This document shows, in pieces, positions 5,774 through 20,973 of a stretch of DNA of 20,973 nt (its first letter is position 1; each line of letters begins with the position of its first letter). The stretch lies in NCBI RefSeq assembly GCF_018854495.1, contig NZ_JABBDR010000042.1, positions 1 through 20,973 on the forward strand. Reading direction: 5' to 3'. This DNA is from Acidithiobacillus ferruginosus (GTDB lineage Bacteria; Pseudomonadota; Gammaproteobacteria; Acidithiobacillales; Acidithiobacillaceae). The notes under the pieces are model-generated. The model saw nothing but the letters and a program-made list of their open reading frames with translations, ran no database searches and was not told where the DNA came from. A program made the translations under genes and the position numbers.

Positions 5774-7708
5774 ATGCCAGATATCCAGTTGCCGGACGGT
5801 AGTCATCGTCAGTTTGCGGAGCCCGTGACCGGGCTGACGCTGGCGCGTACGATCGGCAGCGGGCTCGCCAGGGCGGCGGTAGCCATGCGGGTCAACGGCA
5901 TCCTCAAAGATCTTTCGGCGGTGCTGGATCAGGATGCGGAAGTGGCAATTGTCACCCGCGACAGCGCAGATGGTCTGGAGGTGATCCGCCATTCCACCGC
6001 GCATTTGCTGGCGCAGGCGGTGCAGTCCCTCTACCCGGAAGCTCAGGTCACCATCGGGCCGGTCATCGATAACGGTTTCTACTATGACTTTGCTTTCCCG
6101 CGTGGTTTCACGCCAGAAGATCTGGAAGCGATCGAAGGGCGGATGCGCGCACTGGTCAAAGAAAATCTTCCGGTGCAACGCGAGATGCTCTCCCGCGAAG
6201 ATGCCATGGCTCTGTTTGAAAAGATGGGCGAAGACTACAAGGTCGAAATTATCCGCGCCATTCCCCAAGGTGAACCACTGAGCCTGTATCGGCAGGGGGA
6301 TTTCGTGGACCTGTGCCGCGGTCCGCATGTGCCATCGACTGGTGTTCTCGGGGCATTCAAGTTGCAGCGAGTGGCGGGCGCCTATTGGCGCGGGGATTCC
6401 CGCAATCCCATGTTGCAGCGTATTTATGGCACGGCCTGGGCGCAGCAGAAGGACCTTGACGCCTATCTCCAGCAACTGGAGGAGGCCGAAAAGCGAGATC
6501 ACCGTCGTATCGGCACTGAACTGGAGCTCTTCTCCATTCAGGAAGATGCCGGCGGCGGCCTGGTGTTCTGGCATCCCATGGGCTCGCGCGTGCGACGCGT
6601 CATCGAGGATTTCTGGAGGGGGGCTCATGTGGAGGCAGGCTACGATCTGCTCTATACGCCGCATATTGCCCATGAGCAACTGTGGTATACCTCGGGGCAC
6701 AAGGATTTCTACAGTGAGTCCATGTTCGACCCGATGCAGGACGAGGGGCAGGCATACCAGCTCAAACCCATGAACTGTCCATTCCATATTCTCATTTATA
6801 AGGACAAGCTGCATTCCTACCGGGATCTGCCGATTCGCTGGGCGGAACTGGGTACGGTTTACCGCCACGAAATGTCGGGTGCCCTGCACGGACTGATGCG
6901 AGTGCGGGGCTTTACCCAGGATGATGCCCACGTCTTTTGTCGACCCGACCAGATAGAGGCAGAAATCGGTGCGGTGCTGGTACTGGTGCGAAAAATTCTC
7001 GGCACTTTCGGCTTCGACCAGTATGAAATCAATCTGTCCACCCGTCCCGGGCACTCGGTGGGTAGTGACGAGATCTGGGATGCTGCCACCCAGGCCCTGC
7101 GCAATGCCCTGGAGCGCGCCGGCCTGGAATATCAGGTGGATGCAGGTGGCGGCGCGTTCTACGGACCTAAAATCGATCTGAAGATTCAGGACGCCATCGG
7201 CCGTAAGTGGCAATGCAGTACCGTACAGCTCGACTTTAATCTGCCGGAGCGCTTCGCCATGGAATATGTGGCGGAAGACGGTGCGCGCAAGGTGCCCATC
7301 ATGGTGCATCGCGCCATCTTCGGCTCCATCGAACGTTTCTTCGGTGTACTCATCGAGCACTATGAGGGCAAGTTTCCGGTCTGGCTCGCTCCGGTACAGG
7401 CCGTGGTGCTGCCCATCAGCGAGCATTACTCGGAATACGCCGAGTCGGTAAGTGAGGTATTGGTGAAACGCGGCATCCGGGCAGAAACGGACTTGAGAAA
7501 CGAGAAGATAGGTTATAAGATACGCGCCCATACTTTGCGTAGGGTGCCCTACCTGCTGGTGGTCGGGGAACGGGAAAAAGAAGCGGGTACGGTGGCGGTG
7601 CGGGATCGAAATGGCCAGGATCTCGGCATTCTTACCATAGACGCCGTGGGCGCCACCCTGCAGAAAATGGACCAGACGCGGGTGAATACCCTGGAGTGGC
7701 AAGGCTAG
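5774..7708 (+). CDS. thrS: Threonyl-tRNA synthetase
   Basis: The product is 644 aa, the usual size (E. coli 642). It charges tRNA-Thr in the cytoplasm. The order of domains is complete: an N-terminal TGS domain (about 1-62), the editing domain with H73-x3-H77 (HSTAHLL) and C181-R-G-P-H185, and the class II catalytic core with the zinc Cys in MNCPFHI (C334). Motif 2 is in [20 protein letters not shown], motif 3 is [16 protein letters not shown], and the anticodon-binding domain is C-terminal. The start ATG 5774 has GGAGGGG just upstream. It heads the thrS-infC-rpmI-rplT-pheST-ihfA cluster. No promoter is visible between the tRNA-Val terminator and the start. Confidence 0.97.
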
Positions 7709-13053: not shown

Positions 13054-13131
<78 letters not shown>

Positions 13132-13200: not shown

Positions 13201-14196
13201 TCAGTGAAGCGGCCGTACATGAGTAAATTCTCTGTCGCGGATATAGACCTCAGTCATGCTTCCATCAGCGTGGCCGGCCAGGGCTTGAGCGTAGTCGCGG
13301 CCTCCTATCTTAGAGGCATCCGTCAGCGACTTTGCGCGTATATCATGAAAATGGCAGTCATCCACCTCCGACTTGGCCAACAACCGGCGCCATGCGCTGT
13401 TCCATCCGCTGACGGTATAAGGTGTCCCATCCTGGGATGCAAACAACGAGAGGGATCCTATCCTGCGCCGCAACCCTCGCGCCTTTGAAACCACTGCCCG
13501 CAAGGCCGGTGTCCAGGTATAAAGGACGCGAGCGCCCGTTTTTTCCTGCGCGACCAAAAGCCCCTCCTCTGTGCACTGGTCTAGTCGTAATTTCATGATG
13601 TCACCACGGCGCATGGACGTCAGATAAGCCAAATCGATGATGCACTTCCATTGTTCATCAGCGCATTGACGTAACTTTTCCATCTCGGCATCGGTAATAT
13701 ACCTCTTGCGGGGCTTTTCCTTGTTGCGGCGCACACCCACGCAGGGGTTCTCCTCAGCCCATCCCCAGCGGATGCTATATGCGAAGACGCTGGATAATAC
13801 GGCGATTTCCCTATTTGCCGCCACCTTGGCGCTACGCCTATCGAGATAGCCGGCGACGTCAGGGCGACGCAGGGATTCAATGCGCATGTGCCCGAACACA
13901 TCTCTGAGTGTCTTGAGGATGCGGTGATAGTCCTCCTGGGTCCGTGGGCGGAGTGCAGGGAGGATTTCCCCCTCATATCGGGCAATCGCGGCGCCTATGG
14001 TTCCGGTCTTTTCGCCAGGGACCGTGGATTGGCCCTCTATGGCAGCCCACAAGGTCAGCGCCTCGGCCTTGTTCGCGGATAGTCGTGTCCACTTCAGCTT
14101 GCGGTCTATCCAGCAGGCGTGATAGTAGACTTCACCGCGTTTGTACATCCGCGGTGGCAGCCCCTTATCCTTTGTGCGCTTGCGTCCCATGCCCAT
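13201..14196 (-). CDS. int: Tyrosine recombinase (integrase)
   Basis: The product is 331 aa. It catalyses site-specific integration and excision. The N-terminal part (about 64-150) looks like a SAM-like core-binding domain. The catalytic domain holds the full set of residues: R196 (in TSMRRGDI), K219 (QEKTG), H284-x-x-R287 (FHDIRAKS), H309 (AGHADGS) and nucleophile Y318 (EVYIR). It therefore looks active. The gene ends 70 bases from tRNA-Pro and reads towards it, the usual arrangement at a tRNA insertion. It is the last gene of the minus-strand block, three bases after the DUF4224-type gene, and the start (ATG 14196, with another ATG at 14190) has no strong ribosome site, so coupled translation is likely. 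Confidence 0.93.
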   Translation of the reverse strand: MGMGRKRTKDKGLPPRMYKRGEVYYHACWIDRKLKWTRLSANKAEALTLWAAIEGQSTVPGEKTGTIGAAIARYEGEILPALRPRTQEDYHRILKTLRDVFGHMRIESLRRPDVAGYLDRRSAKVAANREIAVLSSVFAYSIRWGWAEENPCVGVRRNKEKPRKRYITDAEMEKLRQCADEQWKCIIDLAYLTSMRRGDIMKLRLDQCTEEGLLVAQEKTGARVLYTWTPALRAVVSKARGLRRRIGSLSLFASQDGTPYTVSGWNSAWRRLLAKSEVDDCHFHDIRAKSLTDASKIGGRDYAQALAGHADGSMTEVYIRDREFTHVRPLH

Positions 14197-14199
14197 ATG

Positions 14200-14427
14200 T
14201 TAGGCGATTCTGTCCCAATGTGGACAGTCCTCCATTGGTTTGGTGGCTTGTCTGTTGCCCAGAAGGTGGCGCTCCATTTCGGCACGAAGCACAATCGGAC
14301 GGCCGGAGCGCGTTAGGGTGAAGCTGAAGCTATGCCGTTCCAGCCACCGGGTCTGTGCCGGGCGCCTGACGTATCCGGTTAGCTCTTCGATTTCTTCAGG
14401 CGTGATGAACGTGGTTTGACCTTGCAT
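14200..14427 (-). CDS. DUF4224-type small protein
   Basis: The product is 75 aa from ATG 14427, chosen because the recognisable domain starts a few residues later; an upstream in-frame extension to 14640 reads through the neighbouring gene and looks non-native. The domain FITPEEIEELTGYVRRPAQT followed by RWLERHSFSFTLTRSGRPIV matches the DUF4224 pattern (elaeLTGykr...Q..WL...g..f....dGrPvv). Proteins of this family are small and common in prophages and islands, often directly before an integrase, as here. A DNA-binding or excisionase-like role is possible but unproven. It overlaps the upstream 82-aa gene by 32 bases. Confidence 0.75.
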   Translation of the reverse strand: MQGQTTFITPEEIEELTGYVRRPAQTRWLERHSFSFTLTRSGRPIVLRAEMERHLLGNRQATKPMEDCPHWDRIA

Positions 14428-14644
14428 GGCAAAGTTCTTCCCTGGTGATTTGCAACGCGCCATGATGCTGCTGGCGGACGACCAAAGAGTATTTTTGGAA
14501 GCGGTCCGCCTGTCCCAGTAGCACATCCGCCGATCCTTTCTGGCCCATCTTGAGGGCATGCAAAGCGCGATTGCGGTATCCCTGGGCCTCGCTCTCCAGC
14601 CAGTCCGCGCACTCTTCCAAAATCCCGACGGGTGATTCACGCAT
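14396..14644 (-). CDS. Hypothetical 82-aa protein
   Basis: I do not recognise a family. The product from ATG 14644 begins MRESPVGILEECADWLESEA and continues as a mostly helical, charged sequence. No membrane segment or cysteine cluster is present. The start lies inside the end of the upstream gene (ATGcgTGA arrangement, overlap of eight bases), which supports coupled translation and this start. It overlaps the DUF4224-type gene in another frame. Of the two overlapping frames here this one has the more protein-like composition over 14428-14644, which is why I keep it. Confidence 0.55.
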   Translation of the reverse strand: MRESPVGILEECADWLESEAQGYRNRALHALKMGQKGSADVLLGQADRFQKYSLVVRQQHHGALQITREELCHARSNHVHHA

Positions 14645-17920: not shown

Positions 17921-18370
17921 TCAGGACCTCTTCCCTTTGTCGGCATCCCGTTGGGTAAGTTCCTCAATTATTTCTTCATTTTTCCGTTTAACCGTTTCAA
18001 GCTCTCGCATTAATTCTTCCTTTTGGCTGGAAGTCAGCCGCTCGAAAATCCCCAACATCGCTCGCTGTTGAGGGGTAAGCCCCGCTCCCTCGAATGGCAG
18101 GCCGTCTGAGCCGCGCTCCAATGTTGCCATCCAGGCAGTCTTATCCGATGTCGGCATAAGACTGCCTCCGGCAAGCAAAGCGTCCGGATCTCGGCCGAGT
18201 GCGCGTAGCAGTTTGCGCACGGTATCGGCTTTGGGGTTCTTGGTTTCCCCGCTGAGGATTCGTTGAATAGTCGGCTGCGGCACGCCAGACTTAACTGCCA
18301 GCGAGTACTGTGTGTTGTCGGTCTCTGCCATCAACTGGCTGAGCCATTTGCTGTAATCCGTTTGCTTCAT
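17921..18370 (-). CDS. XRE-family repressor of the element switch
   Basis: The product is 149 aa from ATG 18370. The longer frame to 18415 would translate promoter DNA (MALLSLTYVFPHTFS) and is rejected. The HTH is about residues 15-60: NTQYSLAVKSGVPQPTIQRI, LSGETKNPKADTVRKLLRAL. The C-terminal part is a charged coiled coil (SSQKEELMRELETVKRKNEE). There is no S24/LexA-type protease domain, so induction by RecA-mediated self-cleavage is not expected. It is divergent from the Cro-like gene and very likely binds the dyad at 18392-18420. No ribosome site is seen; the predicted leader is only about 10 bases. Confidence 0.88.
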   Translation of the reverse strand: MKQTDYSKWLSQLMAETDNTQYSLAVKSGVPQPTIQRILSGETKNPKADTVRKLLRALGRDPDALLAGGSLMPTSDKTAWMATLERGSDGLPFEGAGLTPQQRAMLGIFERLTSSQKEELMRELETVKRKNEEIIEELTQRDADKGKRS

Positions 18371-18386
18371 GCTGAAAGTATGCGGA

Positions 18387-18415
18387 AATACATACGTTAG
18401 CGATAGTAACGCCAA
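18387..18415 (-). promoter_or_regulatory. Promoter of the XRE repressor
   Basis: On the minus strand TTGGCG (+ strand 18410-18415) and TGTATT (18387-18392) are 17 bases apart; each box matches the consensus at four of six positions. Both boxes touch the 18392-18420 dyad, so occupancy of the dyad should block this promoter. The transcript would start about 10 bases before ATG 18370. Confidence 0.5.
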
Positions 18416-18454: not shown

Positions 18455-18769
18455 ATGGACATGCTATCTACCTCCGAAAAATTGAAAATGTTGCTGGCTT
18501 CCGGCCTCACGACTGTTGAGGTGGCACGCGAGACAGACATAACACAGGCCACGATTTCACGCATCGCGACGGGTAAACATGCCGAACCGCGTGAACGATC
18601 TGTACGTGCCATCGACGCACTTTACACCAAAGTCTGTGCACAGCTTCTCGTTGTTGCGGATCTGGCGTCCCAGGGTGACACAACTTGTTGCGGCCATAAT
18701 GAGAGTGTCACTTCTTCAGGTCATGCCCAAGCCCTTGGAAACGACGCGGCAAAGGATGATGGGCCATGA
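18455..18769 (+). CDS. Cro-like helix-turn-helix protein
   Basis: The product is 104 aa. The HTH is at about residues 7-45: SEKLKMLLASGLTTVEVARE, TDITQATISRIATGKHAEPR. The rest is a low-complexity, probably disordered tail. Its place opposite the XRE repressor with shared operator DNA suggests a Cro/repressor type switch. There is no ribosome site and the start codon coincides with the predicted transcription start, so translation is probably leaderless; ATG 18461 is an alternative. It starts the + strand chain of overlapping genes and its stop overlaps the next start (ATGA, 18766-18769). Confidence 0.8.
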   Translation: MDMLSTSEKLKMLLASGLTTVEVARETDITQATISRIATGKHAEPRERSVRAIDALYTKVCAQLLVVADLASQGDTTCCGHNESVTSSGHAQALGNDAAKDDGP

Positions 18770-19034: not shown

Positions 19035-19462
19035 GCGTACTGGAACCAGCCGTGTGGATCAGGGCCGCGCGCCGCCACCAGCGCCTGGCCATCGCGGTGG
19101 CCGTAGGGCTGTCGCTGCCGCTGATGGCCTGGCTCTGGCGCGAAGGCGATCTGCCGGGCGTGTCACCGGCTCTGTTTTCCCGGGCGGCTTCCGCCTATAA
19201 CGTCGATGGGGTCTACGGACCGGGAGGATGGCTGCTGCCGGTGGCCCTGCGCACCATTGCCGTCCATGCCGATCATGTGTCGGTCCGGGGGCCGGACGGG
19301 AAACTGGTGGTGGGCGCGCATGCCATTCAGTCCGTCCGTGGCGCCGTGACGCAGGCCTGCGCCGTGCATCCCGGCAGCCCTGGCAGGGTACTGGTCAGCC
19401 GCGGCGGCCGCCACCTGCGCATTGAGGCCGGGCGTTGCGTGATCGACGGGAGGAGGGCGTGA
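19031..19462 (+). CDS. Single-pass membrane protein, unknown
   Basis: The product is 143 aa; no family is recognised. Basic residues (RAARRHQR) precede one hydrophobic segment (about 19-36, LAIAVAVGLSLPLMAWLW), which predicts an N-in, C-out anchor with about 105 residues outside the cytoplasm. The outer part has two cysteines (in TQACAVHP and AGRCVID) that could form a disulfide, and alternating hydrophobic strands (HVSVRG, KLVVGA, RVLVSR, HLRIEA). AAGGAG seven bases before the ATG is a good ribosome site. Small bitopic proteins with such layouts occur in conjugation and phage modules, but no assignment is justified. Confidence 0.7.
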   Translation: MSVLEPAVWIRAARRHQRLAIAVAVGLSLPLMAWLWREGDLPGVSPALFSRAASAYNVDGVYGPGGWLLPVALRTIAVHADHVSVRGPDGKLVVGAHAIQSVRGAVTQACAVHPGSPGRVLVSRGGRHLRIEAGRCVIDGRRA

Positions 19463-19466
19463 AGTT

Positions 19467-19760
19467 TTGGACTGTGGAAGCAAGCCCCGGGGACTGGCGA
19501 TTTCCGTCCCGGAGTACATGGCGGAGACGTCCGATTTCCGGCCGGGAGAACACGCCGCCCTGTTCCTGCTGCTGCTCTACGCCCAGAAGCACGGTCTTGT
19601 TCCAGACGACGATGCCGTTTTGGCGCGGATCGGCGACATGAACATGGCCGACTGGCTACTAGCGCGGTCCCGGTTGGAACTTTTCTTTGAGCAAGGCGGC
19701 GGGCATTGGAAACCCGCTTCACTGGGCTGGATCAGGAGGACGCGTGATGACGAAAGCTGA
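19467..19760 (+). CDS. DUF1376-like protein, TTG start
   Basis: The product is 97 aa. Residues 16-80 resemble the DUF1376 pattern of phage replication-associated proteins: PEYMAETSDFRPGEHAALFL, LLLYAQKHGLVPDDDAVLAR, then ADWLLARSRLELFFEQGG and a W. The family usually has the form YlaDt..ls..EhgayllLl..yw..g.lPdDd..la.i. I choose TTG 19467 because AGGAGGG (19451-19457) lies nine bases before it; ATG 19518 would lose that site and the first 17 residues. It overlaps the next gene by 14 bases. Confidence 0.65.
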   Translation: MDCGSKPRGLAISVPEYMAETSDFRPGEHAALFLLLLYAQKHGLVPDDDAVLARIGDMNMADWLLARSRLELFFEQGGGHWKPASLGWIRRTRDDES

Positions 19761-19968
19761 ACGCAAGCGGCGGGAACAAGCGAAACGACGAGGGGCGCAG
19801 CCTTTCCTACGGCAGGCCATCACCCGGGAGATGGTGGACGAGGCTCTGGACGATCTGGAGCGGTGCGGCCTGATCGAGCGGATCCGGATGCCCAATGGTG
19901 AGGTGCATCTGCGCCTACCCCTCGCCCCGGTGCCCGCATGCAACGGTGTGTTGATTCTGGAGGATTGA
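19747..19968 (+). CDS. Small winged-helix protein related to the next gene
   Basis: The product is 73 aa from ATG 19747, which has AGGAGGA six bases upstream; the longer frame back to 19687 lacks this. A very basic start (MTKAERKRREQAKRRG) is followed by ITREMVDEALDDLERCGLIE and RIRMPNGEVHLRLPLAP, typical of the last helix and wing of a winged-helix domain. The same arrangement, MDGVRHALEVLKKCGVIEQL then LVFRLP, appears in the next gene, so the two may share ancestry. It could assist the initiator or regulate it. Confidence 0.65.
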   Translation: MTKAERKRREQAKRRGAQPFLRQAITREMVDEALDDLERCGLIERIRMPNGEVHLRLPLAPVPACNGVLILED

Positions 19969-19970
19969 CG

Positions 19971-20969
19971 ATGACGTCCTATCTCATTACTGACGACGAA
20001 CTGGATATGCTCTATGGGCAGCCATGGTCTGCACAACTGGCCTATTTTCGGGCCATACGCCCCTATATGGACTACACCACCAGAATTGTCGGCCTGAAAC
20101 GCCGCATCAGCCGACGCTCCATCCGGGAAGAGCTGGAGGTTCCTGAGCAGCGCGGAAGGCATTGCGATGAGCAGGCCACGATCACGATGGACGGGGTACG
20201 GCATGCGCTGGAGGTCCTGAAAAAGTGTGGGGTCATAGAGCAGTTACCCTATGACAAGCAACTCGTTTTTCGATTGCCGTGCGCGCATAAGGATAGGTCT
20301 GTCTCGCGGATGAGCCCCCGATCAGCACCCGATGAACACCCGACCATGAGCACCCGGACGGACACCCAACAGAAACCTAATAAATCCGGCACCTCCAGCG
20401 AAATGAGCCCCTGGATGAGCCCCCGATCAACACCCGAGACCTTGGAAGGGATGAGCCCCCTACATCCGGTATCCGGTAAAATAAAAGATAAAAAGCCTTA
20501 CACCGAAGCTGACGCTTCGGTGTCACCGTCACCCGTTGGCTCACGAACTCAGGGACCATCGCCTACCGGGCCACAACGCCAGGCACCGCTTCTGCCGCCC
20601 GTGGCGCTGAGCAACACCACTCCGGCACCGGAACCGACGCCCAAGGTCACCAAGCCGCGGATCTCCACCTTGCCTGTTTGGGAGGCCTACAGCGCGGCCT
20701 ACCAGGAACGCTACGGCATCGCCCCGGTGCGCAACTCCACTATCAACGGCCAACTGGCCCACCTGGTCCGTCGTCTTGACGACGAAGCCCCGGCGGTCGC
20801 CCGCTATTACCTCGACCTGGAAGACCCATACTACCGCCGCGAAGGGCACTCGGTCGGTGCGCTGCTCAAACACTGCGAGCAGTTGCGGACCCTGTGGAAG
20901 CGGGCCGAACAGCGGCGGGTGAGTCCATCTGCTGCCCTGAATCCCGATGACGTGGTCATCGCCCTGTGA
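19971..20969 (+). CDS. Candidate replication initiator with an origin in its coding sequence
   Basis: The product is 332 aa from ATG 19971 (GGAGG seven bases upstream; the longer frame to 19938 is rejected). The N-terminal domain (about 1-105) has MLYGQPWSAQLAYFRAIRPY, ISRRSIREELEVP and a winged-helix end (VRHALEVLKKCGVIEQLPYD). A long proline/serine-rich linker (about 106-232) contains the repeat KIKDKKP and MSPRS copies. The C-terminal domain (about 233-310) has VWEAYSAAYQERYGIAPVRN and YYRREGHSVGALLKHCEQL, a pattern I associate with phage/plasmid replication proteins. By analogy with lambda O, the N-domain would bind the iterons inside the gene and the C-domain recruit helicase loaders. 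Function is inferred, not recognised with certainty. GAGGAG-type bases after the stop suggest another gene follows. Confidence 0.65.
   Translation: MTSYLITDDELDMLYGQPWSAQLAYFRAIRPYMDYTTRIVGLKRRISRRSIREELEVPEQRGRHCDEQATITMDGVRHALEVLKKCGVIEQLPYDKQLVFRLPCAHKDRSVSRMSPRSAPDEHPTMSTRTDTQQKPNKSGTSSEMSPWMSPRSTPETLEGMSPLHPVSGKIKDKKPYTEADASVSPSPVGSRTQGPSPTGPQRQAPLLPPVALSNTTPAPEPTPKVTKPRISTLPVWEAYSAAYQERYGIAPVRNSTINGQLAHLVRRLDDEAPAVARYYLDLEDPYYRREGHSVGALLKHCEQLRTLWKRAEQRRVSPSAALNPDDVVIAL
20310..20461 (+). repeat. Iteron-like array of eight 11-bp units
   Basis: The units are ATGAGCCCCCG (20310-20320), ATCAGCACCCG (20321-20331), ATGAACACCCG (20332-20342), ATGAGCACCCG (20346-20356), ATGAGCCCCTG (20403-20413), ATGAGCCCCCG (20415-20425), ATCAACACCCG (20426-20436) and ATGAGCCCCCT (20451-20461). 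Three are in direct tandem and another pair is too. The 11-bp period is about one helical turn and is not a multiple of three, so the repeat is a DNA-level feature rather than a protein repeat. Confidence 0.85.
20501..20522. repeat. Strong hairpin next to the A+T tract
   Basis: CACCGAAGC (20501-20509) and GCTTCGGTG (20514-20522) form a perfect 9-bp stem with the 4-base loop TGAC. On the minus strand the stem is followed after six bases by T-rich DNA (from the A tract), so it could end transcription entering from the right; on the + strand no T tract follows. Confidence 0.7.
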
Positions 20970-20973
20970 GGAG

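Follow-up and report, generated by a model that had tools for sequence, protein, structure and literature searches.

Introduction

Plasmid iteron origins consist of direct repeats bound by a winged-helix initiator, typically with iterons of 19–22 bp that lie outside the gene. An origin inside the initiator gene is already known from phage lambda, in which gene O contains ori-lambda and to which other lambdoid O genes are comparable (PMC7466680). In Legionella, the lvrRABC genes of genomic island-associated type IV secretion system (GI-T4SS) elements were termed a regulatory module in 2013, with the operon reported to regulate the excision of one island and the islands said to be without a replication module (PMC3864950). 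Here we describe positions 20310–20523 of a contig of Acidithiobacillus ferruginosus (NZ_JABBDR010000042.1; the whole 20,973-nucleotide stretch is referred to as the window, and is one entire contig of a draft genome) as the putative site at which an integrated mobile element starts its replication, placed within the coding sequence of its own initiator, a reading to which we give a probability of about 0.85. A sequence-only reading of the window had likened this locus to a lambda-type origin, with iterons inside an O-like gene, and this likeness is supported by a match of the encoded protein to the profile phrog_391, by the helicase-loader genes of relatives and by repeats that track the DNA-binding domain.

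Two arrays of 11-bp iterons in a putative initiator gene

The initiator gene (19971–20969, forward strand) encodes an O-like protein of 332 residues, as judged from its open reading frame (ORF), profile matches and an AlphaFold2 model; the ORF list gives a start at 19938 (343 residues), and the start at 19971 was adopted since the closest relatives start there. Within it we found eight 11-bp units, in the phase ATGAGCNCCCG, with starts at 20310, 20321, 20332 and 20346 in a first array and at 20403, 20415, 20426 and 20451 in a second, plus a ninth, looser 11-bp unit at 20357. The first array, including the looser unit, thus occupies 20310–20367 and the second 20403–20461, both on the forward strand. 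Counted from the first unit, the starts fall at 0, 11, 22 and 36 and then at 93, 105, 116 and 141, with three units of the second array sitting exactly 105 bp beyond units of the first. The arrays begin 339 bp into the gene, where those of lambda O begin at 348 bp, and encode residues ~114–164, within the disordered part of the structure model.

The best 11-mer family in 20280–20529 has eight non-overlapping copies with at most two mismatches. This number was never reached in 1000 synonymous recodings of the peptide using the codon usage of the contig (maximum six copies), nor in 1000 swaps of synonymous codons within the linker (maximum seven, in 1 of 1000), while 1000 codon-order shuffles gave at most four copies, as did 250-bp windows clear of the arrays. 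As a positive control, the same scan applied to lambda O recovered four units at the four iteron starts annotated in NC_001416. The coding sequence of the initiator therefore contains direct-repeat iterons that are unexplained by its peptide. The sequence-only reading had described eight near-identical and partly tandem 11-bp units in the disordered linker of a 332-residue protein, and had argued that protein repeats could not explain them as the period is not a multiple of three. The units were confirmed, and the recoding controls reject a protein-level cause, although the period argument holds only for the 11 bp within each array; the 105 bp between arrays is a multiple of three, which makes a portion of the peptide recur in the same frame. 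A search of phage records with 20200–20700 returned no nucleotide relatives at E 1e-5.

Directly after the last iteron there is a second DNA element, two 7-bp direct repeats of ATCCGGT (20464–20477, forward strand), followed on the same strand by an A-rich tract that is a candidate unwinding element (20478–20495), and by a hairpin with a 4-nt loop (20500–20523; arms at 20500–20509 and 20514–20523). The A+T fraction after the repeats is 0.75, against 0.40 for the gene, and the hairpin is stronger than expected from recoded sequence (p = 0.003). The same succession had been noted from the sequence alone: the two ATCCGGT copies stand as described, the 18-base A+T tract is present, albeit A-rich and with 16 of its 18 bases A or T, and the hairpin proved to have arms of 10 bp and not 9 bp.

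The encoded protein has the domain order of an O-like initiator

Profiles and the structure model together divide the protein into an N-terminal, winged-helix-like DNA-binding domain (residues ~1–105), a disordered linker (~109–228) and an O-like, helical C-terminal domain (~234–314). The N-terminal 115 residues match phrog_13103 (3e-20) and phrog_23635 (9.6e-16), both of unknown function, and a protein of phage BR153a is a full-length member of the latter; phrog_391, annotated 'replication initiation O-like', is matched by residues 67–316 (2e-8), and phrog_11527 by the C-terminal part (2.8e-14). Neither Pfam nor NCBIfam gave a family for the initiator at E up to 0.1, and an iteron plasmid initiator of the Rep_3/RepA type was rejected, with no match to a Rep domain in either collection. 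In the AlphaFold2 model, residues 8–101 form helices and a two-stranded wing, with block means of the predicted local distance difference test score (pLDDT) of 70–92 and a dip to 47 at residues 61–70; residues 109–228 fall below 50, and the helical C-terminal domain is of middling confidence. From the order of secondary-structure elements in this model, we read the N-terminal domain as probably winged-helix.

Most relatives keep linker repeats on a common spacing grid

Relatives were collected from several sources (their loci carry L numbers and genomes G numbers below). A large protein search found 25 proteins, and relatives turned up in 9 of 96 related genomes, in 10 of 369 genomes from the class, in 76 of 112 from the family of genome G070 and in 2 of 398 from the phylum, counts that include the own genome where it was searched; viral, phage, plasmid and genome records supplied further DNA. 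Collecting with a binding-domain profile gave 116 distinct proteins and 43 representatives, 40 of which were tested (three were too short), the window among them. The representatives were separated at 80% identity times coverage over the whole protein, and some share binding domain and linker (L080, L129).

More 11-bp copies than in recoded versions of the linker were present in 29 of the 40 representatives at p<0.05 and in 22 at p<0.01, and 25/40 stayed below p<0.05 with the stricter swap of synonymous codons within the linker. When all 40 linkers were pooled, exact 7-mer matches at a distance of 11 numbered 128, against 5.6 ± 3.0 in 100 recodings (maximum 13), with lesser excesses both at distances that fit a spacing grid (22, 24, 35 and 36) and at others that need not fit it (4, 6, 7, 9, 12–14, 23 and 57). 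Thinning to 22 linkers with <50% identity in binding domain plus linker left 15/22 significant, with 51 matches at distance 11 against 2.9 ± 2.4 (maximum 10). Of the 29 representatives that reached significance, 28 have their units spread over two or three reading frames.

The sequence of the unit varies by clade, being AACCCGACACA in Legionella-type genomes and AAGTGGGCAGA in Pseudomonas phages, with CCGCACCAYGT, CATCAGCAACC, GAGCTACAACC, CAAGTGGTGAG and others elsewhere. The spacing is similar in most, with steps of 11, then 11–13, then 11–14 bp (offsets 0, 11, 22–24 and 35/36) and a second array 81–105 bp further on; the window and L038, the units of which are unlike, have the offsets 0, 11, 22, 36, 105, 116 and 141 in common. 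The expectation that homologues would keep linker repeats while their amino acids vary was thus borne out, in that most relatives retain 11-bp repeats in a similar layout while both bases and amino acids change. Homologues that keep the protein without clear repeats, named beforehand as a refuting case, do exist, but are a minority of relatives only.

Behind the last unit, TCCGGTA-like 7-bp direct repeats follow immediately in many relatives, across both Acidithiobacillus and Pseudomonas members. Tests of these downstream elements covered 29 loci, leaving out those with fewer than four units and, by name, L012, L039 and L071; the run at distance 7 was longer than in recoded versions in 15/29 at p<0.05 and in 11/29 at p<0.01. 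Such an element would fit a role in strand opening or as a contact for another protein. In some relatives, too, the stretch behind the repeats is clearly rich in A+T. Two further features were rejected as general parts of the origin, namely the hairpin (p<0.05 in 5/29 only) and an alternating purine-pyrimidine tract (p<0.05 in 2/29 only); individual alternating runs after the repeats measured 29 nt in L044 (p = 0.003), 18 nt in L074 (p = 0.033) and 18 nt in L140 (p = 0.053).

Several individual loci were recorded separately. In Acidithiobacillus sp. HP-2 (L024, NZ_JACKZA010000036.1, 5896–6857) the copy of this gene is interrupted, its sequence falling into two frames. L151 (5001–6062) is a 38-kb Cupriavidus plasmid with phage genes, which encodes the binding domain, has no clear iterons and has no loader gene that we recognised by eye among its downstream genes. 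In L008 (1310–1517), also from Acidithiobacillus, an O-like gene whose N-terminal part is of another type contains an 11-mer resembling CCCCTTTGGAG in 11 copies, most of them spaced by 11 or 22 bp, and so has the same iteron length with another domain. Gene O of phage LESphi3 (L032), annotated as replication initiation protein O and also with a differing N-terminal domain, contains seven copies of CACCCCCGCAG, 17–23 bp apart.

Iteron sequence varies with the DNA-binding domain

Iteron sequence was compared with the two protein domains in the 28 representatives with p<0.05 and at least four units (L041 was left out). Iteron similarity correlated with identity of the binding domain (r = 0.70), also when the C-terminal domain was held constant (partial r 0.68, reached by 0 of 2000 permutations, a figure which is only a guide since the representatives are kin), and showed a partial r of -0.14 with C-terminal identity given the binding domain. 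The repeat sequence therefore tracks the DNA-binding domain, not the C-terminal domain.

Natural swaps, looked for among 113 of the 116 proteins, gave the same picture. L077 and L112 are 99% identical in the C-terminal domain and 36% in the binding domain, and their units are unlike (AAGTGGGCAGA against GAGCTACAACC), whereas L088 and L129 are 100% identical in the binding domain and 20% in the C-terminal domain, and their iterons are identical. Likewise, blastn aligned the window with L023 at 19076–19739 (83.8%) and again from 20460 (89.5%), with only 25 bp (19852–19876) aligning between these flanks. This defines an exchanged cassette at 19740–20459 (forward strand) which ends at the last iteron; the junction directly behind that unit implies that binding domain and arrays were exchanged together, and that the exchange did not extend to the ATCCGGT repeats, the A-rich tract, the hairpin or the C-terminal domain.

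Loader-like genes follow in the relatives tested, including Legionella lvr-type loci

The evidence on helicase loaders comes from the downstream genes that were scanned in a subset of relatives. The next gene is DnaC-like in L024 and L003 (phrog_50, 3.5e-62 and 4.3e-21, respectively) and P-like in Pseudomonas phage D14P (phrog_109, 1.2e-30; Pfam lambda P, 4.8e-10), with weak to moderate matches to phrog_109 in Marinobacter phage AS1 (3.3e-5) and in viral contig L148 (8.7e-7). Three Legionella-type loci also match phrog_109 (4.3e-4, 3.2e-7 for L152, and 1.3e-8), while the Pfam lambda P family gave values below the cut-off for Legionella-type genes (0.003 and 0.0045) or no match (L007).

On plasmid 9 of L. 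adelaidensis, a divergent HTH gene, an initiator-like gene, a P-like gene, a csrA-like gene and integrative and conjugative element (ICE) T4SS genes follow one another, which is the order of lvrR, lvrA, lvrB and lvrC in PMC3864950, and our use of the name LvrA rests on this gene order and that description. The family of G070 is presumably the Legionella family, with one of its genomes carrying this plasmid. From the loci listed for it we picked 18 for an lvrA-like gene, and these correspond to ~16 independent loci, since L161 is the query's own plasmid and the proteins of L157 and L158 are identical. An lvrB-like gene follows the lvrA-like gene in 18/18, with lvrR-like, csrA-like and T4SS genes in 17, 15 and 11 of the 18, respectively; five or six linker units are present in 13 loci and four in two more. 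The window protein resembles LvrA in its domain and arrays, while the loader of its nearest relatives is DnaC-like, not P-like. Genomes of the family of G070 can hold up to seven copies of the binding domain (G491 and others).

The surrounding element

Host genes end at a tRNA-Pro(ggg) gene (13054–13130), after which come an integrase, an excisionase-like gene, a ParB-like gene, a CI-like repressor, a divergent Cro-like gene and then the initiator, which is the final complete gene in the window. The tyrosine integrase (13201–14196, reverse strand) adjoins the tRNA gene and is followed by the excisionase-like protein (DUF4224; 14200–14640, reverse strand); the CI-like HTH repressor (17921–18415) is on the reverse strand and diverges from the Cro-like HTH regulator at 18455–18769 on the forward strand.

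Inside the exchanged cassette, immediately before the initiator, a 73-residue protein (19747–19968, forward strand; the start is our choice, the ORF list giving a longer frame with a TTG start) is similar to the latter half of the DNA-binding domain of the initiator. Its alignment score with that domain was reached by 0 of 1000 shuffles, and that of its L024 counterpart by 4 of 1000; L023 has a small ORF at the matching place, and in L038 and L044, too, a small ORF for the binding domain precedes the initiator. It is possibly a regulator that competes for the iterons. L173 lies in a genome of the window's genus that consists of one contig; the genes adjoining its initiator are those for a divergent CI-type repressor, a helicase-loader-like protein, a DNA methyltransferase, an anti-repressor and an anti-restriction-like protein.

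Discussion

The binding of this protein to its iterons, strand melting, contact with a loader and origin activity itself are what we infer from these data. In the mechanism we propose, the winged-helix-like domain would bind the two iteron arrays, with iterons about one helical turn apart within an array and 105 bp between arrays, to form an O-some-like complex, which would melt the A-rich stretch beside the ATCCGGT repeats. The C-terminal domain would then recruit the helicase loader that the adjacent downstream gene encodes (DnaC-like in the nearest relatives, P-like in Legionella-type loci and the phages tested), and this would load the host helicase. As the binding domain and its sites share ~0.5 kb, they are passed on and swapped as a single cassette.

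A number of observations weigh against this origin. The sequence stops at 20973, right after the initiator gene and before the next one, so that loaders are known from relatives; GC skew across the 8 kb of the element was uninformative; the overall confidence of the structure model is low (mean pLDDT 55, predicted template modelling score 0.34); and the binding-domain profile does not match lambda O. Among the relatives, 11 of the 40 representatives were not significant (7 of 22 after thinning), and examination of these by eye showed arrays outside the tested stretch in two (L013 and L147), the same or fewer units in L034, L073, L043, L004 and L071, and no clear units in L012, L061, L151 and L040. 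L041, L044, L148 and L150 deviate from the spacing grid, A+T richness after the repeats is mild in Pseudomonas relatives, and the hairpin recurs in few relatives. Three of the 18 Legionella-type loci (L160, L162 and L169) are unclear; by eye they appear to keep degenerate units near the expected places, and may be decayed origins or follow a looser code.

Iterons often serve both replication and regulation, and an operator role for the arrays would not exclude an origin. That they are operators instead, acting in autoregulation or in copy-number control by array pairing while replication starts elsewhere, we regard as unlikely. The homologous Legionella operon is described as regulatory and is reported to regulate the excision of one island (PMC3864950), and linkage between binding domain and arrays would look alike if these were operators; however, the arrays begin close to the position of those in lambda O, the protein has an O-like profile match, a loader gene follows in the relatives tested and a strand-opening candidate follows the arrays in the window. 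A very improbable alternative is that the arrays are mainly a recombination substrate for exchange of the binding-domain cassette: the exchange junction does fall at the last iteron, but the arrays of the exchanged alleles are unlike (5/11 matches, near the chance value of 5.8) and so give no homology, and what the window and L023 have in common resumes at 20460 and includes the ATCCGGT repeats and the A-rich tract. Least credible is that the DNA itself plays no part and that the repeats reflect codon bias or a disordered peptide of repetitive make-up, as, despite the in-frame repetition of part of the peptide between the window arrays, the single within-linker swap that reached seven copies and the one frame shared by all units of L041, units elsewhere occupy two or three frames and recoding abolishes the 11-bp signal in the pooled linkers.

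Returning to the origin, we consider it fairly probable that it exemplifies an unnamed family of initiators, each with an 11-bp iteron origin on a common grid in its own gene, so that origin and binding specificity would evolve and travel together, which serves both phages and ICEs, and in which lvrA and lvrB correspond to O and P in a lambda-like replication. If lvrA is O and lvrB is P, then the lvr module is the replication module, and Legionella GI-T4SS elements would replicate in a lambda-like manner despite their description as lacking one, a candidate answer to a question that the 2013 description left open. The proposal offers a testable function for two phage protein families of unknown function and for lvrA/lvrB. 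Furthermore, the relatives form a natural series of matched domains and sites, including natural swaps, for learning how such a domain picks its DNA, and their spacing grid is conserved while bases and amino acids change.

Comparison with known systems

No plasmid initiator domain was found here by Pfam, in contrast to plasmid iteron origins. The N-terminal parts of phrog_13103 and phrog_23635 match the initiator, and where these families have no assigned function, one is proposed here. Our search of the open-licence literature found no earlier description of LvrA as an initiator, or of an initiator gene that contains 11-bp iterons. Four features appear to be new and did not come up in this search, namely the length of the unit, the grid with two arrays, the 7-bp element and the occurrence in ICEs.

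The Legionella lvrRABC loci share the binding domain, in most cases the 11-bp linker arrays, and the divergent HTH gene before the initiator; a P-like gene comes next, and csrA-like and T4SS genes often follow, whereas the order in the window (integrase, CI, Cro, O) is that of temperate phages. Lambda O is alike in having an N-terminal binding domain and linker, direct-repeat iterons within the gene, an A+T-rich stretch behind them (here, clear in the window and mild in Pseudomonas relatives), a loader gene next (here, in relatives) and a position after CI and Cro. It differs in having four 18-bp iterons, where the window combines two arrays of 11-bp units, set 105 bp apart, with the 7-bp element, and in a binding domain with no detectable sequence relation to the one described here, so that, as far as the sequence of this domain indicates, the initiator is not lambda O by descent.
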